Assembly (NCBI GenBank): GCA_900163555.1
Contig: FUHX01000052.1
Location: 1-64,000, forward strand
Origin: Actinomycetales bacterium JB111
GTDB lineage: Bacteria; Actinomycetota; Actinomycetes; Actinomycetales; Actinomycetaceae
DNA: 64,000 nt
Direction of reading: 5' to 3'
The notes beneath the pieces were generated by a model. The model had not been told where the DNA came from and did not search any database. It was given only the letters and a program-made list of their open reading frames with translations. Positions 6,014 to 30,413 of the stretch are shown in pieces. How positions within the stretch are numbered: position 1 is the first letter of the stretch; the number at the start of each line of letters is the position of its first letter. Made by a program: the position numbers and the translations under genes.

Positions 6014-7500
6014 GACGAGACCGCGGACGGGTCGCGCCGGCCGGCGCGGGCACCGCCGAGCGCGGCGTACAGCCCGGCGGCGATGACGAACGTGGCCACC
6101 CACGCGAGCCCGTTGGACCCGATCCACGTCTCCGCGAGCGCGCCGGTGAACCAGACCTCGTGGTCGCTGACCTTCGCCTCGCTGAAGAGGTACCCGATGA
6201 CGATCGCGACCGCCCAGGCGAACGTCGACCGCCACTCGATGCCGCCGGTGTACCAGTAGCCGGAGGTGCGGCGCAGGTCCATGAGCGAGTCGGGGTGGTA
6301 GGTGCGCCGGCTGATCATGTCGACGACGAACACGCCCACCCACGCCGTGATCGGCACGGCCAGCAGCGAGATGAACGTGATGAACGGGCCGTAGAAGCTC
6401 TCCGCGATGAGCATGAAGTAGATGGCGCCGATCGTGGTGACGACGACGTCGAGGATGACCGCGTTCACGCGCTTGATGCGGATGCCGAGCGTGAGGGTCG
6501 TGAGCCCGGCCGAGTAGACGGACAGGTGGTTCGACAGCAGGAGCCCGCCGAACGCGGTGATGAGGTAGGGGATCGCGACCCAGGTGGGCAGGACCGAGCG
6601 GACGGCGGCGACCGGGTCGCCGGCGCTCGCGAGGCCGGAGTCACCGGCGCCGAGGACCGCGCCGAGGCCGATGATGATGACGAGCGGGATGCCGGCGCCC
6701 GCGGATGCCGACGCGATGAGCGCCCCGGCCTTCACCCGCGGCGACTGGTAGCGCGCCATGTCGGCGCCCGCGTTCGCCCAGCCGATACCGGTGCCGGCCG
6801 CGATGGTGCCGACGCCGATGATGACGGCCGAGGCCGGTCCCGCGGGTGCGGCCAGGACGACGTCCCAGTTCACGGTGGTGACGAGGTAGGCGGCGACGAA
6901 GATGTTGAGCGCCCCGAAGATCCACGTCGCCCACTTCTGGACGAGGACGAGGAACGCGTGCCCCATGCCGGACACGGCCACGGTGCAGGCCACGAAGATC
7001 GCGATGCAGACCAGCGCGAGGACCGGCGTCTCCTTCGCGTTCGGGTTGGTGCCGAGCACGAGCGTCGAGAGTGAGAGCAGCGCGAACGCGCCGGTCGTCG
7101 TGTTGACGGTCTCCCAGCCGAGGCGGGAGGCCAGCGAGACGATCGTGGGGCCGATGTTCCCCCGGACGCCGAAGATCGCGCGGGACAGCGTGAGGCTCGG
7201 CGCCCCGCCGCGGCGGCCCGCGATCGAGATGACGCCGACGATCGCGAACGAGCCGAACGCGCCGAGGGCGGCGGCGAGGAGCGCCTGCCAGACATTCATC
7301 CCGAGCGCGACGAGCGTGACGCCGAGGGGGATGCCGAGGATGGAGAGGTTCGCGGCGAACCAGACCCAGAACAGGTCGAGCGGGTTGCCCTTCTGCTCGT
7401 CGGTCGGCACGGGCTCGATGCCGCGCTGCTCGTACGTCGACAGGATGCGCTCCTGCGTCGCGGCGGCCGCGGTCGGCGCGGCCTGGGGGTCGTGGGACAT
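6010..7500 (-). CDS. NCS1-family nucleobase/cytosine permease
   Basis: A 496-residue membrane protein with about 12 transmembrane segments. The N-terminus (IEPVPTDEQKGNPLDLFWVW..NLS) and early motif GAPSLTLSRAIFGVRGN are typical of NCS1 transporters (cytosine, hydantoin, nucleobase:cation symporters), as is GWANAGADMARY in the middle. It would import a nucleobase, nucleoside or hydantoin-like compound. It sits 111 bp after the ADP-ribosylglycohydrolase gene and overlaps the kinase start. In E. coli the corresponding yeg operon uses an MFS nucleoside transporter, so this looks like a replaced transporter with conserved downstream enzymes. Substrate unproven. Confidence 0.92.
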   Translation of the reverse strand: MSHDPQAAPTAAAATQERILSTYEQRGIEPVPTDEQKGNPLDLFWVWFAANLSILGIPLGVTLVALGMNVWQALLAAALGAFGSFAIVGVISIAGRRGGAPSLTLSRAIFGVRGNIGPTIVSLASRLGWETVNTTTGAFALLSLSTLVLGTNPNAKETPVLALVCIAIFVACTVAVSGMGHAFLVLVQKWATWIFGALNIFVAAYLVTTVNWDVVLAAPAGPASAVIIGVGTIAAGTGIGWANAGADMARYQSPRVKAGALIASASAGAGIPLVIIIGLGAVLGAGDSGLASAGDPVAAVRSVLPTWVAIPYLITAFGGLLLSNHLSVYSAGLTTLTLGIRIKRVNAVILDVVVTTIGAIYFMLIAESFYGPFITFISLLAVPITAWVGVFVVDMISRRTYHPDSLMDLRRTSGYWYTGGIEWRSTFAWAVAIVIGYLFSEAKVSDHEVWFTGALAETWIGSNGLAWVATFVIAAGLYAALGGARAGRRDPSAVSS

Positions 7501-17360: not shown

Positions 17361-18461
17361 ATGACCACGACCCACCGTCGACTTCGGACGATCACCATCG
17401 GAGCGGCCGTCACGGCGCTCGTCCTCGCCGCATGCTCCTCCGGGGAGGACGACGCCGACGGCGCCGACCTCGAGGAGGTCAGCATGACCGTGGCGACCCC
17501 CACCTGGAACGCGGGGATCGCGAGCCTCGCCGTCTCGGAGGCCATGGGCTACTTCGAGGACGAGGGCCTCGACATGGAGGTCGTCCTCACCGACTCCGCG
17601 ACGACGCAGCTCACCCAGGTCGCCACCGGCAACGCTGCGACCGGGGCGATCAGCCCGGAGCCGATCATCCTGGGGCACCAGGACGGCACGGACATCGACC
17701 TGTCGTACTTCATGTACTACTACGCGACGAACATCTACGGGGTCATGGTTCCCGAGGACTCCCCGATCCAGTCGCTCGAGGACCTGGAGGGGACGACGGT
17801 CGGGGCGATCTCCCTGGCGAGCAACTCGGTGACGCAGCTCCAGGTCGCCATGGAGCTGGAGGGCCTCGACCCCGACTCGGTCACCTTCGTGGCGATCGGC
17901 GTCGGAGGGCAGCAGGCGGCCGCGGTCGAGAATGGCCAGGTCGACGCCGCCGCCCTGCTCGACACGTCCTTCCAGGTCCTGCAGAACCAGGGCATCGAGC
18001 TGCGCCCGATCGAGCTGGCCGCGACCGAGAACCTCACGGCCGGCGGGCTGGCCGCCCCCAGCGCGGAGCTGGAGAGCAACCCCGACCTCTACGAGCGGAT
18101 CGGCCGGGCGGTGGCGCGGGGCGTCGTGTTCGCGCAGGCGAACCCGGAGGCGGCCATCCGCATCCTCTTCGAGGAGCACCCCGAGGCCATGCCGCAGGGC
18201 GTCGAGGAGGAGCAGGCGGTGGCGGGCGCCGTCACGGTCCTCGAGGCGCGTCTCGCGAACCTCGGCATCGAGGACGGTGCGACCGAGTACGGGCGGTTCG
18301 ACCCCGCGGCGCTCGAGAGCAACGTCGAGTTCCTGCTCAGCGCCGGTGAGATCGACACCGCCGTCCCGGTCGAGGACTTCTGGAACGACTCGCTCATCGA
18401 CGGCATCAACGACTTCGACTTCGACGAGGTCCGCGAGGAGGCGGCGAACTACGGTGAGTAG
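17361..18461 (+). CDS. ABC substrate-binding lipoprotein (NMT1/SsuA-like)
   Basis: A 366-residue lipoprotein: Arg-rich start, hydrophobic core and lipobox LAAC with lipidated Cys 25, then an acidic linker and a type II periplasmic-binding fold. Motifs TPTWNAGIASLAVSEAMGYF, VATGNAATGAI and GVGGQQAAAVENGQVDAA are those of the NMT1/SsuA group, which bind sulfonates, pyrimidine precursors, aromatics or similar organic ions. ATG 17361 was preferred over GTG 17352 because of GAGAGG upstream. The 3' end overlaps the flavin reductase gene by 8 bp. Substrate unknown. Confidence 0.9.
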   Translation: MTTTHRRLRTITIGAAVTALVLAACSSGEDDADGADLEEVSMTVATPTWNAGIASLAVSEAMGYFEDEGLDMEVVLTDSATTQLTQVATGNAATGAISPEPIILGHQDGTDIDLSYFMYYYATNIYGVMVPEDSPIQSLEDLEGTTVGAISLASNSVTQLQVAMELEGLDPDSVTFVAIGVGGQQAAAVENGQVDAAALLDTSFQVLQNQGIELRPIELAATENLTAGGLAAPSAELESNPDLYERIGRAVARGVVFAQANPEAAIRILFEEHPEAMPQGVEEEQAVAGAVTVLEARLANLGIEDGATEYGRFDPAALESNVEFLLSAGEIDTAVPVEDFWNDSLIDGINDFDFDEVREEAANYGE

Positions 18462-19104
18462 GTCGTACGTCGCGGTTGACGCCGACGATCTCGTCGCGTC
18501 GACCGCGTACCGGCTGCTCACCGGGGTCGTCGTCCCGCGGCCCATCGCCTGGATCACGAGCAGGTCGGCCGACGGCGTGCTCAACCTCGCGCCCTTCAGT
18601 GCCTTCACCCTCGTGTCGAACGACCCGCCGATGGTCGGCGTCAACATCGGCCTGCGTGCAGGGAAGCTGAAGGACACGGCGGCGAACATCGAGGCCACCG
18701 GCGAGTACGTCGTCAACATCCCGTCCTGGTCGATGCACGAGCAGGTGCACGAGAGCTCGGTCGCGCACCCGCATGGCCACGACGAGGCTGAGGGTCTCGG
18801 GCTGGCGACCGAGCCCAGCGACGTCGTCGGCGTGCCCAGGCTGGCGGACGTTCCCGTCGCGCTCGAGTGCCGGTTCGACCAGTTCGTCAGCTTCGGACGC
18901 GCCGGCTCGCGGTTCACTGTCGGGGAGGTGGTCCGATTCCAGATCCGGGAGGACCTCCTGGAGGACGGGAAGATCGATACCGTCGCCGTGGACCCCGCCG
19001 CACGGATCGCGGGGCCGAACTATGTGCGCATCGGCGAGACGTCCCGGTTGCGTCCGATCGCCATCGCGGTGACTTCGTCGGACGCGGCCTCGATAGGAGA
19101 ATGA
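18454..19104 (+). CDS. Flavin reductase-like FMN-binding protein
   Basis: A 216-residue split-barrel protein of the flavin reductase-like group (DIM6/NTAB, YwrF-like). RLLTGVVVPRPIAWITS, LAPFSAFTLVSNDPPM and the VNIPS strand are the FMN-binding core. Such proteins reduce flavin with NAD(P)H for a partner monooxygenase or act as stand-alone FMN enzymes. No partner monooxygenase is in the operon, so it may act directly or serve an enzyme coded elsewhere. GTG at 18454 lies inside the end of the binding-protein gene. Confidence 0.88.
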   Translation: MSRSYVAVDADDLVASTAYRLLTGVVVPRPIAWITSRSADGVLNLAPFSAFTLVSNDPPMVGVNIGLRAGKLKDTAANIEATGEYVVNIPSWSMHEQVHESSVAHPHGHDEAEGLGLATEPSDVVGVPRLADVPVALECRFDQFVSFGRAGSRFTVGEVVRFQIREDLLEDGKIDTVAVDPAARIAGPNYVRIGETSRLRPIAIAVTSSDAASIGE

Positions 19105-19107
19105 GGC

Positions 19108-19851
19108 ATGGCATCGAACGGCGTGGACATCCAGGCGGTGAGCAGGGTGGGGCTGATCCTCGGCCTCTTCGGTCCCACCAGGGAGACCGTCAGCACCGCT
19201 GAGGCGGCCGAGCTCATCGGCGTCAACCGGACGACCACGTACCGGTACCTCGCGTCGCTCGTCACCGCGGGCATCCTCGAGCCGAGGGAGGGGCGGAGCT
19301 ACGGCCCCGGCCCCATGCTGCTCCAGCTCGGCGCGTTCGCCCTCGGCAAGCAGGATGTCATGCATCACGCGCCCGGGCCGATGGCCGCGCTCGCCCGGCG
19401 GACCGCGATCACGACCGTGCTGTCGGTGTGGGGGGAGCGTTCGCCCGTCGTCGCGCACGTCGAGGAGAGCCCGGGGCGGGAGATCCTCGTGACCGTGCGT
19501 GTCGGGATGCACCTGCGCAGCACCGCGGCCCAGGCCGCGGTGTTCCACGCCTTCCGGGCCGACGACGCGTCCGTCCGGGCCTCGCTGAAGGCCATGTCGG
19601 CCGACGAGCGGGAGGACGTGCTGCGCGCGGCCGACGATGTCCGCACCTCCGGGTACTCCGGACGCGTCAGCGTCCGCGGCATCGCGGTGCTGGCCGTGCC
19701 GGTGATCGTCGGCGGCCGGATGGTCGCCTCGCTCGGCCTGTTGTCTACCCGGGATGTCATCGACGTCGGCGCCGAGTCGAAGGAGCTTGTGGCGCTGCGG
19801 GAGTGCGCGGACGAGATCGCGGCCTCGATGGGGGGCAGCGGGAACCGCTGA
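19108..19851 (+). CDS. IclR-family transcriptional regulator
   Basis: A 247-residue IclR-type regulator with an N-terminal winged helix (STAEAAELIGVNRTTTYRYL, residues about 29-48) and a C-terminal GAF-like effector domain (VRVGMHLRSTAAQAAVFHAF; SGRVSVRGIAVLAVPV). It is the last gene of the 13.0-19.9 kb operon, three bases after the reductase stop. It most likely responds to the operon's substrate or an intermediate and acts on the promoter near 12957-13017. Confidence 0.9.
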   Translation: MASNGVDIQAVSRVGLILGLFGPTRETVSTAEAAELIGVNRTTTYRYLASLVTAGILEPREGRSYGPGPMLLQLGAFALGKQDVMHHAPGPMAALARRTAITTVLSVWGERSPVVAHVEESPGREILVTVRVGMHLRSTAAQAAVFHAFRADDASVRASLKAMSADEREDVLRAADDVRTSGYSGRVSVRGIAVLAVPVIVGGRMVASLGLLSTRDVIDVGAESKELVALRECADEIAASMGGSGNR

Positions 19852-19867
19852 CGAGCCGGCAGGGCCG

Positions 19868-19929
19868 GACTGGTGGGACGGAACTGGTTCGTCCGGCGTC
19901 GAGAACGTGTCAGTTGGGTCCCACCAGTC
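19868..19929. repeat. Nested-palindrome element, family B copy 1
   Basis: Perfect 12-bp outer arms GACTGGTGGGAC (19868-19879) and GTCCCACCAGTC (19918-19929) enclose a second partial stem (AACTG with CAGTT, GTTC with GAAC). It lies 17 bp after the IclR stop. The same arms occur twice more near 38.8 kb. It may also act as operon terminator. Confidence 0.6.
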
Positions 19930-20006
19930 GGGTAGGGGAGTGAGGCCGCCGCCCGCGCTGCGCCCCCACCCTTGAAACCCCACCGACCGAGGCGTCCAAT
20001 GGGGGC

Positions 20007-20570
20007 ATGACCACTCCGGCGACGACTTCGGCGACGACACCCGGCGGCTTCCCCGTCGCCCACCACGCGGACGACGCGCCGCTCCTGGCGATCACCGTCG
20101 ACGACTCCGCGTGCGACCCGAACGACCTCGCCCAGTGCGGCGGCGTCGAGGTCACGGCCGCCGCCGACGTGCGCTGGGACGACCTCGTCGACCGCGCCGT
20201 CGCCTCCGGATGGCCCGGCTTCGAGCTTCTCCACGGGGCGGCCGCGACCGTCGCGGACGCCGTCCGGGACAACGTGGCGCGGCACGGCCAGGCCGTGGCC
20301 GACGTCGTCGCCTCGGTGCGGGCCGTCGACCGGACCGACGGCGCCCGCCGCTCCCTCGCGTTCGCGGAGTGCGACTTCGTCCCCGGCGGCTCCCGGCTGG
20401 CCGAGCGCTTGCCCGACGGCGGGCTCCGCCACGAGATCCTCGACGTCTCCTTCCTCCTGCGGCAGGGCGACCTCACCGCCCCGATCAGGGATGCGGACCT
20501 CGCCCGCACCCTCGGCGTCGAGCCCGGCGCCCGGGTTCCGCTCGCGGACGCGGCGCGGCTCGTCCGCTGA
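20007..20570 (+). CDS. Degenerate MurB-like protein (truncated)
   Basis: A 187-residue protein that aligns by eye to the middle of actinobacterial UDP-N-acetylenolpyruvoylglucosamine reductase (MurB). RWDDLVDRAVASGWPGFE, the HGQAVADVVASVRAVDR strand, and TAPIRDADLARTLGVEPG correspond to conserved MurB positions. The N-terminal FAD-diphosphate segment and the C-terminal domain (with the SAGSFF-type Ser and final Glu) are missing. The SGIPG and catalytic FGYR-type motifs are replaced (LHGAA, FVPG). So it cannot be a working MurB reductase. It lies alone upstream of purF. It is either a decaying paralogue or a repurposed fragment; the frame is intact with normal codon use. Confidence 0.68.
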   Translation: MTTPATTSATTPGGFPVAHHADDAPLLAITVDDSACDPNDLAQCGGVEVTAAADVRWDDLVDRAVASGWPGFELLHGAAATVADAVRDNVARHGQAVADVVASVRAVDRTDGARRSLAFAECDFVPGGSRLAERLPDGGLRHEILDVSFLLRQGDLTAPIRDADLARTLGVEPGARVPLADAARLVR

Positions 20571-20720
20571 GCCCGAGCCGCCGCCACGGCACGTCCGTCA
20601 TCCGCCTGGACCCGCGCCCGCCGCCCGCCCGAGCTGCCGCCCACACACGCCCTCACACTGGCCCCCACGTACCCCACCCACAGACGCGGACGTCACATCG
20701 GCGCCGCCGCGCCCTGTGGG

Positions 20721-20726
20721 AAGATT
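20721..20726 (+). promoter_or_regulatory. purF -10 element; predicted leaderless start
   Basis: AAGATT (20721-20726) ends six bases before the purF GTG at 20733, the spacing expected when transcription starts at the start codon. No Shine-Dalgarno is present. A matching -35 is not evident. Confidence 0.35.
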
Positions 20727-20732
20727 GGGCCC

Positions 20733-22190
20733 GTGGTACGTGGCGACGGCCGGCTCTCGCATGAGCTCCTTCCGGGTGAAAAAGGACCCCAGGACGCCTG
20801 TGGCGTGTTCGGGGTATGGGCACCGGGGGAGGAAGTCTCGCGACTCACCTACTTCGGCCTCTACGCCCTCCAGCACCGCGGGCAGGAGGCGGCGGGCATC
20901 GCCACGTCCGACGGCGAGAAGATCCTCGTCTACAAGGACACCGGCCTCGTCTCCCAGGTGTTCGACGACCAGGCGCTCAGCTCGCTGACAGGCCACATCG
21001 CCGTCGGCCATACCCGCTACGCCACCCAGGGCGGCCGCGCCTGGCAGAACGCCCAGCCCACCCTCGGCCCCACCGCGACCGGCACCGTGGCCCTCGCGCA
21101 CAACGGCAACCTCACGAACACCCGCGAGCTCATGCGGCTCGTCCACGACCGGACGGGCGAGGACCTCTCCGCCGACCTCGGCAAGGGGTCCTCCACCGAC
21201 ACGAGCGTCATCACGCACCTCATCGGTACCGAGCCGCCGAGCGACGGCGGCCTGCGCGACGCCGCGATGGCGGTCCTCCCGCGCCTGCGCGGCGCCTTCT
21301 CCCTGTCGTTCATGTCCGAGACCACGCTCTACGCGGCCCGCGACCCGCAGGGCATCCGCCCCCTCGTCCTGGGTCGCCTCGACAGTGGGTGGGCGGTCGC
21401 CTCCGAGACCGCTGCGCTCGACATCGTGGGCGCCACCTTCGTCCGCGAGGTCAACCCCGGCGAGCTGCTCATGATCGACGAGGACGGCGTGCGCTCCGAG
21501 CGCTTCGCCGAGGCGAACCCGAAGGGCTGCATCTTCGAGTACGTCTACCTCGCCCGCCCGGACACGACGATCGCCGGCCGGCCCGTCAACGCCTCCCGCA
21601 CCGAGATGGGGCGCGTCCTTGCCCGCGAGCACCCCGTCGACGCCGACCTCGTCATCCCCACCCCGGAGTCCGGCACGCCCGCCGCGATCGGCTACGCGCA
21701 GGCCTCCGGCATCCCGTTCGGCCAGGGCCTGGTGAAGAACGCGTACGTGGGCCGCACGTTCATCCAGCCCACGCAGACCATTCGGCAGCTCGGCATCCGG
21801 CTCAAGCTCAACCCGATGCGCGAGGTCATCGCGGGCAAGCGGCTCGTCGTCGTCGACGACTCGATCGTCCGCGGCAACACCCAGCGCGCGCTCGTCCGCA
21901 TGCTCCGCGAGGCCGGTGCCAAGGAGGTCCACGTGCGGATCTCGTCCCCGCCCGTGCAGTGGCCGTGCTTCTACGGCATCGACTTCGCCACGCGCGCCGA
22001 GCTCATCGCCAACGGCATGAGCGTCGAGGAGATCCGCGAGTCCCTGAACGCCGACTCGCTCGGCTACATCTCGCTCGACGGCATGGTCGAGGCCACCGCC
22101 ATCGACTCCGACCGTCTCTGCACGGCGTGCTTCTCCGGCACGTACCCCGTTCCCCACGAGATCCCCGAGCTCACCGAGGTGTCCCGATGA
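20733..22190 (+). CDS. purF: Amidophosphoribosyltransferase
   Basis: A 485-residue enzyme that commits PRPP to purine synthesis by making phosphoribosylamine from glutamine. A 22-residue propeptide precedes the catalytic Cys 23 (DACGVFGVW). The Ntn-glutaminase domain runs to about 240, with HTRYATQG and AHNGNL. The phosphoribosyltransferase domain carries the PRPP loop VVVDDSIVRGNT near residue 371, and the C-terminal ligand cysteines in CTACFSG fit an Fe-S cluster form. GTG start as judged from the leaderless promoter. It overlaps purM by ATGA, the classical actinobacterial purF-purM pair. Confidence 0.97.
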   Translation: MVRGDGRLSHELLPGEKGPQDACGVFGVWAPGEEVSRLTYFGLYALQHRGQEAAGIATSDGEKILVYKDTGLVSQVFDDQALSSLTGHIAVGHTRYATQGGRAWQNAQPTLGPTATGTVALAHNGNLTNTRELMRLVHDRTGEDLSADLGKGSSTDTSVITHLIGTEPPSDGGLRDAAMAVLPRLRGAFSLSFMSETTLYAARDPQGIRPLVLGRLDSGWAVASETAALDIVGATFVREVNPGELLMIDEDGVRSERFAEANPKGCIFEYVYLARPDTTIAGRPVNASRTEMGRVLAREHPVDADLVIPTPESGTPAAIGYAQASGIPFGQGLVKNAYVGRTFIQPTQTIRQLGIRLKLNPMREVIAGKRLVVVDDSIVRGNTQRALVRMLREAGAKEVHVRISSPPVQWPCFYGIDFATRAELIANGMSVEEIRESLNADSLGYISLDGMVEATAIDSDRLCTACFSGTYPVPHEIPELTEVSR

Positions 22191-23368
22191 CTTCCCCGAC
22201 GTCGAACGGCAGCCAGGCGCACCACGCCGCCCCCGCCCCGGGCGGGGCGGGCGACGTCGCCGGCGTGACCTACGCGGACGCCGGCGTCGACACGGAGGCC
22301 GGCGACCGCGCCGTCGAGCTCATGAAGGACGCCGTGAAGGCGACCCTCTCGGAGAAGGTGCTGGGCGGCGTCGGCGGGTTCGCGGGGCTCGTGGACGTCA
22401 GCGTCCTGAAGGACTACGAGCGGCCGCTGCTCGCGACCTCCACCGACGGCGTCGGGACGAAGATCGCGATCGCCCGCGCCATGGGCGTCCACGACATGAT
22501 CGGCCAGGACCTCGTGGCCATGGTCGTCGACGACATCGTCGTGGCCGGTGCGAGGCCCCTGCTCATGACCGACTACATCGCGTGCGGCAAGGTGAACCCC
22601 GAGCTCATCGCGGACATCGTCCGCGGCATCGCGCAGGCCTGCCAGGCGACCGGCGTCTCCCTGCTCGGCGGCGAGACCGCGGAGCACCCGGGCCTCATGG
22701 CCCCGGACGAGTACGACGTCGCCGGCGCCGCCACCGGCGTGGTCGACGCGAAGGACGTGCTCGGACCGGACCGCGTGCGCGGCGGCGACGTCCTCATCGG
22801 CATGGCCGCCTCGGGCCTGCACTCCAACGGCTACTCGCTCGTGCGGCGCATCGTCGCCGACGCCGGCTGGGCCCTCGACCGGGACGTGCCCGAGCTCGGC
22901 CGCACGCTCGGCGAGGAGCTCCTCGAGCCGACCCGCCTGTACACGCTCCCGTGCCTCGATCTCGCGGCCGACCTCGGCGACGGCCTCCACGCCCTCACCC
23001 ACGTGACCGGCGGGGGACTGGCCGCGAACCTCGCGCGCGTCCTGCCGGCGGGCGCGGTCGCGGACGTCGACCGCTCGAGCTGGACGGTGCCCCCGGTGTT
23101 CGGCCTCATGCAGTCGCTCGGGCGCGTGCCGTGGGACGACCTCGAGGGCACCCTCAACCTCGGGATCGGCATGGTCGCCGCCGTCGACCCCTCGGTCGCC
23201 GACCGGGCCGGCGAGGTCCTCGCCGCCGCCGGCATCGAGACCTCGATCCTCGGTACCGTCCGGCCCGACGACGGCGCCCGGCTGGGGGCGGACGTCCGGG
23301 TCGTGGCCGGGACCAAGGGCGTCACCGCGGGCGCCGTGCACATGCGTGGCTTGTACCGCGTCTCCTGA
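22187..23368 (+). CDS. purM: Phosphoribosylformylglycinamidine cyclo-ligase
   Basis: A 393-residue AIR synthetase, the fifth step of purine synthesis. A disordered Ala/Pro-rich start (about 30 residues) precedes the conserved core: TYADAGVD, STDGVGTK, GQDLVAMVVDDI, LLGGETAEHPG and the ATP-grasp-like GLHSNGYSLVR, with HVTGGGL in the C-terminal half. It starts within the purF stop. No further pur genes follow here. Confidence 0.97.
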   Translation: MTSPTSNGSQAHHAAPAPGGAGDVAGVTYADAGVDTEAGDRAVELMKDAVKATLSEKVLGGVGGFAGLVDVSVLKDYERPLLATSTDGVGTKIAIARAMGVHDMIGQDLVAMVVDDIVVAGARPLLMTDYIACGKVNPELIADIVRGIAQACQATGVSLLGGETAEHPGLMAPDEYDVAGAATGVVDAKDVLGPDRVRGGDVLIGMAASGLHSNGYSLVRRIVADAGWALDRDVPELGRTLGEELLEPTRLYTLPCLDLAADLGDGLHALTHVTGGGLAANLARVLPAGAVADVDRSSWTVPPVFGLMQSLGRVPWDDLEGTLNLGIGMVAAVDPSVADRAGEVLAAAGIETSILGTVRPDDGARLGADVRVVAGTKGVTAGAVHMRGLYRVS

Positions 23369-24753: not shown

Positions 24754-26625
24754 GTGAGTCGGGCAGCGGGCCCCGGGCCGAACCATCGGGCGAGGACATC
24801 GTTCCTCGCGGGTCTTGCGCTCGTCCTCATCCTCGGCGGGGCCACCGGCCCCGCCTTCGGTGAGCCCTCGACACCGGACGAACCGGGCTCGGGCGAGACC
24901 CCGACGTCGGGGGAGGGTGGCGAGGACGCGACGACGTCCGACGACGAGCTGACGCCGTCCGACGACCCCCTGCTCGTGGACGCGCTGCGGGCGCTCCGGC
25001 CGGCCGTGACGGCTGCGCCCGCGGCGCCGCTCCCGGTGACGAACGCGCCGCCGTCGAGCGGCGGACTGTCCGGGCCGCTCGGCCACGGGACGTACGCGCT
25101 GACCTCCTACATGGGGCCGCGGTGCATCCCGGTCCTCTACGGGTCCTCGAGCCACGGCGGCATCGACATGGGCGCGGCCGCCGGCACGCCGATGTACGCG
25201 ATCGCCGACGGCGTGGTCGTCAACCAGTTGTCCGACCCCGTCGCGGGGCAGTGGCTGCTCGTGCGGCACGTCATCGACGGCCGCTACGTCTTCGCCAGCT
25301 ACTCGCACACGACCGACTTCGACCGGTACGTCCGCACGGGCGACCGGGTGACCCGCGGACAGCGCATCGCCGACGTCGGGACGACCGGCGTCTCCACGGG
25401 TCCCCACCTGCACTTCGAGATGTGGCTGGACGCCTACCTCCGGGGCACGCGCGTGGAGCCGATGGCGTACTTCGCCGCGCGCGGCGTGGACCTCCGGGCC
25501 GCCGCCGTGCGGGCGCTGCCGCAGACCACGCCCGCCAGCTGCGGGTACTACGCGATCGGGTCCACGCCGATCCGGTCCGCCCCGTCGGCGGGCGCGAGCG
25601 TGCTGACGATGGCCGCGAACTACACGGCGATGACCGGGTGGCCCGGGGACAAGACGGGCGACTGGGTGCACGTGCGGGTCGGCGGGGTGACCGGCTGGGC
25701 GCACGCCGGCAACGTCTCGCCCGTGCGCACCGGGGAGCCCGACGCGCGGGCGGCGCGGGCGACGACCGTGCGGTCCTCCCGCCAGGTCGTCCCCGGCAAC
25801 GAGATCTCCACGGTGTCCGCCGGGACGCGGATCGAGGAGGTCGGCGCGCTCGTCGACGGCTGGTACCGGATCAGCGTGGGCGGCACGGAGGGCTGGGTGC
25901 CCGCCGCGGACGTGACGCTGACCGCCGGGGTCCGGCGCGGCATCGACGAGGGCTTCTTCCTGGCCAACTCGTTCCGCACGTCCGCCACGACCGTCTTCTC
26001 GTACGGCGAGTACTACGACCGCTTCTACGTCGGCGACTTCGACGGCAACGGGACCGACACGTTCGCCTACCGCCGGGACGCCGTCTACCGGATCCGGAAC
26101 ACGAACTCGCCCGGCAACCCGGACGTGACGATCGCCTACGGCCGCGCCGAGGACGAGGTGCTCGTGGGGGACTGGGACGGCGACGGCACGGACACCCTCG
26201 CCGTGCGCCGAGGGAACGAGTTCCACCTGCGCAACTCCCTGACCTCCGGCCCGGCGGACGTGGTGCTCAGGTTCGGCCGGCCCGGGGACGAGGTCCTCGT
26301 GGGCGACTGGGACGGGAACGGGACCGACACGCTCGCCGTGCGACGGGGCTCGCGGGTCTTCGTGCTCAACACGGTCCGGTCGGGGCCCGCGGACGTCGAG
26401 TTCAGCTACGGGCGGGCGAGCGACGCCGTGTACGTCGGGGACTTCGACGGCGACGGCAGCGACTCGTTCGCCGTGCGCCGCGGGGCGACCTACTTCGTGC
26501 GCAACTCGCTGTCCGGCGGGGCTGCCGACGTCCAGATCGTCTACGGGCGCGTCGGCGACGAGACCTACGTGGGGGACTGGGACGGCGACGGCGCCGACAC
26601 CCTCGGCATCTACCGGTTCTTCTGA
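24754..26625 (+). CDS. Secreted M23 peptidase with SH3-like and FG-GAP-type repeats
   Basis: A 623-residue exported protein. A signal peptide (residues 1-36, cleavage near AFG) and an acidic linker precede an M23/LytM endopeptidase domain at about 105-245. Its zinc ligands H134 and D138 (HGGIDMG) and the HLH motif at 218-220 are all present. Residues about 255-395 look like two SH3-type wall-binding modules. The tail (about 400-623) is five repeats of some 45 residues, each with VGDWDGDGTDT-like calcium loops (DxDxDGxD), as in FG-GAP/VCBS domains. It should cleave peptidoglycan cross-links at the cell surface. GTG start with no clear Shine-Dalgarno. Confidence 0.88.
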   Translation: MSRAAGPGPNHRARTSFLAGLALVLILGGATGPAFGEPSTPDEPGSGETPTSGEGGEDATTSDDELTPSDDPLLVDALRALRPAVTAAPAAPLPVTNAPPSSGGLSGPLGHGTYALTSYMGPRCIPVLYGSSSHGGIDMGAAAGTPMYAIADGVVVNQLSDPVAGQWLLVRHVIDGRYVFASYSHTTDFDRYVRTGDRVTRGQRIADVGTTGVSTGPHLHFEMWLDAYLRGTRVEPMAYFAARGVDLRAAAVRALPQTTPASCGYYAIGSTPIRSAPSAGASVLTMAANYTAMTGWPGDKTGDWVHVRVGGVTGWAHAGNVSPVRTGEPDARAARATTVRSSRQVVPGNEISTVSAGTRIEEVGALVDGWYRISVGGTEGWVPAADVTLTAGVRRGIDEGFFLANSFRTSATTVFSYGEYYDRFYVGDFDGNGTDTFAYRRDAVYRIRNTNSPGNPDVTIAYGRAEDEVLVGDWDGDGTDTLAVRRGNEFHLRNSLTSGPADVVLRFGRPGDEVLVGDWDGNGTDTLAVRRGSRVFVLNTVRSGPADVEFSYGRASDAVYVGDFDGDGSDSFAVRRGATYFVRNSLSGGAADVQIVYGRVGDETYVGDWDGDGADTLGIYRFF

Positions 26626-28206: not shown

Positions 28207-28270
28207 ACACGACGCCCCTCCGGGTGTCCCAGACTGACGGGAACGGCCCCGGACTCAAGGAGGAGTACTC

Positions 28271-29494
28271 ATGGCAACCGTTGTTCTCATCGGCACCCTG
28301 GACACCAAGGGCGCCGAGTACGACTGGCTCGCGGACAAGGTGCGCGAGCACGGAGCCGAGGTGCGCACGATCGACGTCGGGACGCACTCCGCGCACGGCG
28401 CGGACGCCACGCCGGCCGAGGTGGCCGCGGCCAGCGGTCAGGACCTCGAGGCACTGACCGCGGCCGACGACCGCGGTGCGGCCATGGACGCGATGGCCGA
28501 CGGCGCCGCCGCCATCCTCCTGGAGTGGTTCGGGACGGGGGAGATCCACGGGGTGCTCGCGCTCGGCGGGTCCGGCGGGTCGTCAGTCGCCTCCCGGGCG
28601 ATGCGCGCGCTGCCGGTCGGCGTACCGAAGCTCCTCGTCTCCACCATGGCGGCCGGCGACGTCTCCCCGTACGTGGGGGAGTCCGACGTGACGATGATGT
28701 ACTCGGTCGTCGACGTGGCCGGCATCAACTCCGTCTCCGAACAGGTCTTCGGCAACGCCGCCGCCGCGATCGCCGGCATGGCCGCCGAGGAGGAGGCGCG
28801 ACGCTTGCGCCCCGAGGGCGACCACAAGCCGCTCATCGGCATGTCCATGTTCGGCCTGACGACGCCGGCCGTCGACGAGGCCCGCGCCGAGCTCACCGCG
28901 CTCGGCTACGAGGCTCTCGTCTTCCACGCCACCGGCTCGGGCGGGCGGGCCATGGAGAAGCTCGCGACGGACGGCCGGCTCGCCGGGGTCCTTGACCTCA
29001 CGACGACCGAGCTCGCCGACGACCTCGTCGGTGGCGTGCTCACGGCCGGGCCGCGCAGGCTCGAGGCCGCGGGCGCCGTCGGGATCCCCCAGGTGGTCTC
29101 GCTCGGCGCGATCGACATGGTGAACTTCGGGCCGCGGGAGCTCGTGCCGGAACGGTTCGACGGGCGGAACTTCGTGGTCCACAACCCGACCGTCACGCTC
29201 ATGCGCACGACGGTCGAGGAGAACGCCGAGCTCGGGCGTCGGATCGGGGCCAAGCTCGCCGCGGCGACCGGCCCGGTGGCCGTCGTTCTGCCGGCCGGCG
29301 GGCTGAGTGGGATCGACGCGCCGGGGAAGCCCTTCCACGACCCCGAGGCGGACACGGCGGCCTTCGCCGCCGTCCGCGAGGGGGTGGCCGGCTCGGCGGT
29401 CGAAGTCATCGAGTCCGAGCAGCACATCAACGATCCCGGTCTCGGCCGGGACGCCGCCAGGACGCTTCACGCGCTCATCCAGCAGGCCGGCTGA
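28271..29494 (+). CDS. UPF0261 (Tm-1-like ATP-binding) protein
   Basis: A 407-residue member of UPF0261. The start VVLIGTLDTKGAEYDWLADK is the family signature. The N-terminal nucleotide-binding half includes LALGGSGGSSVASRAMRALP, and the C-terminal half VFHATGSGGRAMEKL and DLTTTELADDLVGG. It is homologous to the N-terminal, antiviral domain of tomato Tm-1; its bacterial role is not settled. AAGGAGG lies eight bases before ATG 28271. It is followed by the PEP-hydrolase-like gene, the other half of Tm-1. Confidence 0.93.
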   Translation: MATVVLIGTLDTKGAEYDWLADKVREHGAEVRTIDVGTHSAHGADATPAEVAAASGQDLEALTAADDRGAAMDAMADGAAAILLEWFGTGEIHGVLALGGSGGSSVASRAMRALPVGVPKLLVSTMAAGDVSPYVGESDVTMMYSVVDVAGINSVSEQVFGNAAAAIAGMAAEEEARRLRPEGDHKPLIGMSMFGLTTPAVDEARAELTALGYEALVFHATGSGGRAMEKLATDGRLAGVLDLTTTELADDLVGGVLTAGPRRLEAAGAVGIPQVVSLGAIDMVNFGPRELVPERFDGRNFVVHNPTVTLMRTTVEENAELGRRIGAKLAAATGPVAVVLPAGGLSGIDAPGKPFHDPEADTAAFAAVREGVAGSAVEVIESEQHINDPGLGRDAARTLHALIQQAG

Positions 29495-29555
29495 CCGGTC
29501 GGCCTGCTGACCGACTGCGTGGCCGTTCGGCCGACCGACCGACCGGCCGAACGGC
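29481..29555. other. Two intercistronic hairpins
   Basis: AGCAGGCCG / CGGCCTGCT (29481-29489, 29500-29508) spans the UPF0261 stop. GCCGTTCGGCC / GGCCGAACGGC (29522-29532, 29545-29555) encloses three GACC units. Both are perfect stems lying 30-100 bp before the next start and may set relative expression or mRNA stability. Confidence 0.5.
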
Positions 29556-29585
29556 TTGATTCCCACGACGACGAAGGAGAACCAC

Positions 29586-30413
29586 ATGGATCGCACGACC
29601 GCACTCGAGAGGCTGCGGGCAACCGTGGCGGCCGGACGCCCGATCATCGGCGGCGGCGCCGGCACGGGCCTGTCGGCGAAGTCCGCCGAGGCCGGCGGCA
29701 TCGACATGATCATCATCTACAACTCCGGCCGGTACCGGATGGCCGGTCGAGGCTCGCTCGCCGGGCTCCTCGCCTACGGCGACGCGAACGCGATCGTCAT
29801 GGAGATGGGCAACGAGGTGCTCCCGGTCGTCAAGGACACGCCCGTCATCGCGGGCGTCAACGGAACCGACCCGTTCCGGGTGATGGGCCGGTTCCTCGAC
29901 GAGGTGAAGGCCGCCGGCTTCGCGGGCGTGCAGAACTTCCCGACCGTCGGTCTCATCGACGGGGTGTTCCGGCAGAACCTCGAGGAGACCGGCATGGGCT
30001 TCGCCCACGAGGTCGAGATGATCCGGCTGGCCGCCGAGCGCGACCTGCTGACCACCCCGTACGCGTTCGACGCCGACCAGGCCCGTGAGCTCGTGGCCGC
30101 CGGCGCGGACGTCCTCGTGCCGCACATGGGGCTCACGACGAAGGGGAGCATCGGGGCGAGTACCGCACTGACCCTGGACGAGTGCGTGGAGAAGATCCAG
30201 GAGATCCACGACGCCGCGAAGGAGGTCAACCCCGACGTGCTCGTCCTGTGCCACGGCGGTCCGATCGCCGAGCCCGCGGACGCGCAGTACGTGCTCGAGC
30301 GCACCACCGGCGTCGTCGGTTTCTACGGCGCCAGCTCGGTCGAGCGGCTGCCCACCGAGGTCGCCATCCGCGAGCAGGTCGAGACCTTCAAGGCGGTCAC
30401 CTTCGGCGGCTGA
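29586..30413 (+). CDS. PEP hydrolase-family TIM-barrel protein
   Basis: A 275-residue TIM-barrel protein of the phosphoenolpyruvate hydrolase-like family (PF09370 type). [19 protein letters not shown] at the start, [35 protein letters not shown] and the barrel end [12 protein letters not shown] are conserved. It corresponds to the C-terminal domain of plant Tm-1, and such genes nearly always follow UPF0261 genes. GAAGGAG precedes ATG 29586. Substrate and reaction are unproven. Confidence 0.9.

Follow-up and report, generated by a model that had tools for sequence, protein, structure and literature searches.

The window analysed here is a stretch of 64,000 nucleotides from Actinomycetales bacterium JB111 (contig FUHX01000052.1). 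An open reading frame on its forward strand, at 20007–20570, starts with ATG, ends with TGA and encodes a stand-alone paralogue of MurB domain II with 187 residues. It is followed by purF (20733–22190), which was identified by reading the sequence. MurB is essential for peptidoglycan synthesis and is a drug target. The initial annotation had described the frame as intact, with the middle of MurB recognisable and both the FAD-binding start and the C-terminal catalytic domain gone, and had offered two readings, a fresh remnant of a duplicated murB or a domesticated fragment. The 187 codons are open throughout, and the GC content at the three codon positions (0.80/0.55/0.96) is like that of the other members of the short family described below.

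A MurB profile search had been named beforehand as a check on the relationship. The NCBIfam model PRK13903 matched the window protein at E=1.8e-23 with 83 bits (curated cut-off 231), and TIGR00179 matched at E=2.2e-7 with 30.4 bits (cut-off 144.5). The aligning part, residues 27–183 (20085–20555, forward strand), covers only positions 78–225 of the 362 in PRK13903, which corresponds to domain II and also resembles MurB structures in the PDB when modelled. The scores lie well below both cut-offs. Since the match is confined to this central part, both ends of MurB are missing, as had been claimed. The best sequence relative in the PDB is M. tuberculosis MurB (5jzx, E=1.8e-7), and a profile built from 15 short-family members reached M. 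tuberculosis MurB at E=9.4e-16. Both MurB models matched 15 of the 15 short members scanned. A Pfam search of the window protein gave zero matches, and five of the 15 members reached the Pfam family FAD_binding_4. The silence of Pfam does not refute the relationship, because the dedicated MurB models match. At the level of profile similarity, descent from MurB is confirmed well beyond chance.

A full murB was also looked for elsewhere in the genome, and an ordinary one is present (G000:C1:3820-4875; 150.8 bits on TIGR00179 against the cut-off of 144.5). It adjoins a MaoC-like gene, recognised by reading. All 15 carriers of the short gene that were tested possess a full MurB above the TIGR00179 cut-off. 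Two matches at E<=1e-30 were obtained in 12 of the 13 Propionibacteriaceae genomes whose short gene is uninterrupted; genome G1010 gave a single match, and its full murB did not show up at this threshold.

The short family consists of 26 uninterrupted members, the window protein included, of 172–227 residues, and one interrupted copy. The carriers belong to the family of the window organism (with Georgenia), to Occultella and to the Propionibacteriaceae. Those named in a scan of public genomes are Georgenia species, Oceanitalea stevensii, Occultella gossypii, O. aeris and two Tessaracoccus strains. That scan, when based on an alignment, returned 25 loci from public genome contigs, 11 short and 14 full MurBs; a single-sequence scan of public genome contigs with the window protein returned no match. 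Among 99 relatives searched, the short form was found, besides the window, in only two genomes of one genus. Profile searches placed it in all six genomes of the Georgenia genus, in at least 10 of 213 genomes of the window's family (a further match, G058, is a full MurB in a frame of 394 residues), in at least 8 of 396 genomes of the order sample (a further match, G069, is again a full MurB), and in at least 14 of 198 Propionibacteriaceae, at least 13 uninterrupted and one interrupted (G941). In the class sample of 394 genomes, 36 passed E<=1e-38, and among the matches listed only the window's own was short. The counts for the window's family, the order, the class and the Propionibacteriaceae are lower bounds, with 8 to 17 candidates scored per genome. 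The gene is present in 3 of 24 genomes of the Occultella family and in 3 of 4 of the Occultella genus. Member frames were read directly; for the window gene, direct reading and two of the searches give 187–208 residues, against 748 in one automatic listing. The member from G964 runs into N before its end is reached. The interrupted copy (L207, 8730-9229 in G941) was left out of all protein alignments and trees. The patchy distribution, together with this interrupted copy, indicates that the short gene is dispensable.

The residues that distinguish the short proteins from MurB were compared by aligning the 26 short proteins with 57 full ones (2 of the 59 full rows were dropped), numbered by the window protein. 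The initial annotation had called the internal motifs altered, and seven domain II residues bear this out: all 57 full MurBs have P86, Q88, G91, Y126, R127, K132 and Y162, and none of the 26 short proteins has any of them. G83 is retained in two short members and G54 in four. Position 127, Arg in all 57 full MurBs, is occupied in the 26 short proteins by Gly (20), Ser (3), Asp (2) or Ala (1). Counted by alignment, it corresponds to E. coli Arg159; the Tyr-Arg pair occupies positions 156–157 of the 340-residue chain in 1uxy, which are 158–159 of the 342-residue chain in 1mbb. According to a review (PMC12844806), Arg159 and Glu325 of MurB contact the substrate carboxylate and Tyr190 contacts the diphosphate. 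The FAD module of MurB is formed by domains I and II and the substrate module by domain III, as stated in PMC10058398. The GGGSN loop of domain I (G[GS]GSN), which serves the FAD pyrophosphate, and the GSFF motif of domain III, the domain that supplies the catalytic Ser (A/S-x-SFF) and Glu, are found in none of the 26 short members, whose frames end before the latter motif; the full rows were selected by having G[GS]GSN and SFF, so neither motif counts as evidence when short and full proteins are compared. The alignment shows that the short proteins should be unable to work as MurB, since they lack the substrate-binding Arg, the residues of the FAD loop and the entire catalytic domain.

Other residues have been kept or gained. 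W57, G71, E73, L75, G94, D108, L169 and R176 are found in all or nearly all rows, short and full alike. Fixed only in the short family are an acidic residue at position 84 (Asp or Glu, 26/26), L150 (26/26) and D162 (25/26). A proposed further novelty, C36, was withdrawn, as 19 of the 59 full MurBs have C-x(6-8)-C[GA][GA], aligned one column off. All 26 short proteins are acidic, with pI values of 4.09–4.72. It could be proposed that the truncated protein pairs with the full MurB chain and restores or boosts its activity, and the full MurB in all 15 genomes tested would be in keeping with such complementation. However, the FAD and substrate residues are consistently replaced, which is unexpected for part of an active site, and complementation is very unlikely. 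A conserved and selected frame without catalytic residues, in a genome that also has a full paralogue, is on sequence grounds a pseudoenzyme.

The predicted structure of the window protein agrees with the profile matches. AlphaFold2 given the 15 short rows alone produced a poor model (pLDDT 55.8). With 58 rows, 43 of them full MurBs, the model was confident (pLDDT 87.4, pTM 0.79), and this confidence borrows from MurB because it rests on those 43 rows. All 18 matches of the model in the PDB at E<=0.001 are MurBs, so the structural check, leaning as it does on the full rows, again returned a MurB-like fold. The best match is M. tuberculosis MurB (TM 0.70 by query length), and DprE1 comes next after the MurBs. 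It is likely from this model that the short protein folds like MurB domain II.

Trees were built on the shared domain from 15 short and 44 full rows and, in a larger version, from 26 short and 43 full rows (15 and 16 of the 59 full rows, respectively, had been dropped). The short proteins form one clade in both, each time with support of 100/100. The window protein groups with Georgenia members (97/92 in the smaller tree, 87/90 in the larger). Occultella groups with Tessaracoccus OS52 (99/96 and 81/73), which fits transfer between orders. The window protein lies outside all sampled full MurBs and is not sister to the murB of its own genome, and a duplication of that murB as the origin of the window gene was rejected on this account. 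The likeliest source suggested by the sequences is the full MurBs of a family designated f38, which group with those of Phytoactinopolyspora (Jiangellaceae). These have the nearest appearance: one of them, G591, has the top profile score outside the short family (165.9 bits), and their C-x7-CGG segment resembles that of the short family, although they are complete enzymes of 350–510 residues with GGGSN and GSFF. The larger tree separates them from the remaining full MurBs with support of 84/74. A further Cys, placed seven residues ahead of the conserved CGG, was seen in L078, L079, L097 and 15 other full MurBs of f38 and Phytoactinopolyspora.

Two members look like intermediates. The copy in Tessaracoccus sp. 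OS52 (L075, 5920-6600, 227 residues) and that in G1010 (L206, about 6350-7009, 220 residues) each have a recognisable but decayed domain I, with GGGSN replaced, and lack domain III. The TIGR00179 match of the OS52 copy spans positions 13–168 of 290. L206 sits on a long branch in the larger tree and its place is uncertain. From these two members we infer that domain III and the FAD loop were lost first and the rest of domain I later.

Comparison of dN/dS across relatives, another of the checks proposed at the outset, gave ratios of 0.14–0.46 for the short gene in 12 of 12 pairs (each Fisher p <= 8.7e-5), calculated by the Nei-Gojobori method without codon-bias correction and from pairs that share branches. 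In a set of 14 pairs the range was 0.14–0.53. The murB of the same genomes gave 0.12–0.20 in the 12 pairs without the window, and the short gene lay above murB in 11 of these, which indicates weaker constraint and faster evolution. For the two pairs that include the window, the values were 0.58 and 0.54 for murB and 0.50 and 0.53 for the short gene. The estimated ratios show purifying selection on the short gene. The suggestion that the frame was left behind by a recent murB duplication and is now decaying gains something from the interrupted copy in one Propionibacteriaceae genome, as some copies evidently do decay. It is opposed by 26 uninterrupted members with similar boundaries in three groups, a single clade, dN/dS well below 1, a conserved upstream element, a window copy that is not sister to its own murB and a frame conserved among distant relatives, and is highly improbable. 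Of the two readings first offered, it is the domesticated fragment that the data favour: the short protein is very probably a conserved, non-catalytic, domesticated paralogue of MurB.

What this paralogue does is approached less directly. The gene might encode a decoy or immunity protein that mimics MurB domain II and titrates a MurB-directed toxin, antibiotic or phage factor. A single, mobile-looking gene with a patchy occurrence across orders and relatively fast amino-acid change would suit that role. It is nevertheless an unlikely one, as the family has no defence-family match, no relative on viral contigs and no close plasmid relative; PADLOC (defence) and PHROGs (phage) matched none of 15 short members, and the literature covered, which was searched with other questions in view, gave no known MurB-targeting agent. 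A mobile or phage origin of the short gene was rejected, since the viral contigs searched held no relative of the family. The plasmid collection contained no close relative; of the two weak matches that reached E<=1e-5, the first carries the annotation UDP-N-acetylmuramate dehydrogenase and the second lies in a record of 11.85 Mb. The sole match in the phage collection (L209, MT836661.1) is a full MurB, as GGGSN and GSFF are both present in its frame of 735 residues. MT836661.1 is filed as 'Bacteriophage sp.' from human faeces and may be a misfiled bacterial contig.

The initial annotation had also drawn attention to purF. No adjacent gene is common to the short-gene loci when they are compared across genera, and a functional link to purF was rejected for this reason; judged from gene order, purF is a chance neighbour. 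A lipoprotein-like gene lies upstream of the short gene in five of the six genomes of the Georgenia genus. In five Propionibacteriaceae loci, among them that of the interrupted copy, a cluster of ParB, thioredoxin reductase, D-Ala-D-Ala ligase-like and SURF1 genes lies to one side of the short gene or to the other. Within 10 kb, a handful of genes are common to the window and Georgenia, at different distances. A large, secreted-looking repeat protein is encoded at 24754–26625 of the window, 4.7 kb downstream of the short gene; in four genomes of the Georgenia genus its homologues precede the short gene, at a distance of about 1–7 kb upstream. A UPF0261 protein followed by a PEP-hydrolase-like protein is encoded at 28238–30005, with homologues 4–6 kb away from the short gene in one Georgenia genome. 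An Rfam search of positions 18000–23000 of the window matched no RNA element. The comparison shows the short gene to behave, in its arrangement, as a single unit with its own upstream element. With no conserved operon partner, guilt by association is uninformative, and a link to the Mur pathway rests on descent alone.

The context across genera, tied neither to murB nor to other cell-wall genes, speaks for the possibility that the function is unrelated to peptidoglycan precursors, the small protein binding or sensing a different ligand or partner. The residues newly fixed in the short family and its fast evolution point in the same direction. There is, however, no positive pointer to another pathway, and PADLOC, PHROGs and Rfam gave no match. 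Such a function is possible, at odds of roughly one against two. Action of the non-catalytic paralogue on MurB or the Mur pathway can be put forward only tentatively and is less likely than not.

An upstream element precedes the start codon in most of the family genes. In the window it consists of a -35-like hexamer, TTGAAA (19972–19977, forward strand), and a -10-like hexamer, TCCAAT (19995–20000, forward strand), which begins 17 nucleotides after the first and ends 6 nucleotides before the ATG. TTG occurs at the same spacing in 23 of 27 family genes, the -10-like hexamer takes the family form T[GC]NNAT, and TTG-N20-T[GC]NNAT precedes the start codon with a gap of 6 nucleotides in 21 genes and 7 in two. 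The element is absent from three Occultella genes (L065-L067) and from L206, and it is present with the 7-nucleotide spacing in the interrupted copy. In the 21 of 27 upstream regions that align at 6 nucleotides (omitted were L065-L067 and L206, without the element, and L060 and L207, with the longer spacing), T-35, T-34, G-33, G-16, G-13, T-12, A-8, T-7 and G-5 are invariant, and position -11 is G (17) or C (4). Sigma70 sites have A at -11. The starts of 14 Propionibacteriaceae loci were chosen partly by a match to T[GCA]NNAT at -12 to -7, so the count favours these positions; TTG at -35, G-16 and G-13 were not used in the choice.

The geometry fits a sigma70-type promoter with an odd base at -11 and transcription from the ATG, and conservation of the element suggests a leaderless mRNA. 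In 12 genomes the strict pattern of the element occurred eight times, once in each genome that has it and always at the short gene, with none in the other four; the reversed pattern, as a control, did not occur in the same genomes. In the window's genome the exact pattern occurs once, at the short gene. Chance predicts few strict matches, so that one per genome tells us that the exact form is private to this gene and is no sign of a dedicated regulator site. A search of the same 12 genomes for the usual leaderless layout, TTG-N20-TANNNT-N6-ATG, gave 69 matches against four when reversed. A role for the short protein as a DNA-binding autoregulator is unlikely, since its pI is 4.09–4.72 in all 26 members.

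A binding or regulatory pseudoenzyme is the most economical reading of a protein that is acidic, lacks the catalytic residues and has kept the fold. The family descends from a full MurB; domain III and the FAD-pyrophosphate loop were probably the first parts to go, followed in most members by what remained of domain I. A sigma70-like promoter would drive expression from a leaderless mRNA, and the resulting acidic, cytosolic domain would fold like MurB domain II and work by binding. By contacting MurB or a MurB partner or ligand, it may tune the step that makes UDP-MurNAc. Taken as a whole, a domain II family with leaderless expression that acts as a binding or regulatory pseudoenzyme on the MurB step is the best explanation, and we give it a probability of about 0.5. 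A wider proposal, that MurB-derived regulatory pseudoenzymes have spread between actinobacterial orders with a private promoter and sense or set the flux through the MurB step, is speculative and would be right in perhaps one case out of four.

In the open-licence PMC literature, as far as its accessible text extends, no prior description of short, truncated or pseudoenzyme MurB paralogues was recognised. Current annotation would tend to label such proteins MurB fragments or pseudogenes. A conserved one-domain derivative of MurB that has been stripped of the active site and has moved together with its upstream element would be a natural modulator or mimic of MurB. The two members with a decayed domain I would provide a stepwise record of the passage from an enzyme to a non-catalytic domain protein.

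Compared with MurB itself (TIGR00179, PRK13903; 5jzx and E. coli 1mbb), the short proteins share the domain II sequence, the predicted fold and the invariant fold residues. They lack domain III, the GGGSN loop, the catalytic Arg and the Gln, Pro and Gly of the FAD loop, and their scores lie far below the cut-offs. With pseudoenzymes generally, as these are described in the available excerpts of PMC5106787 and PMC10211241, they share a retained fold, the loss of catalytic residues and the presence of an active paralogue.
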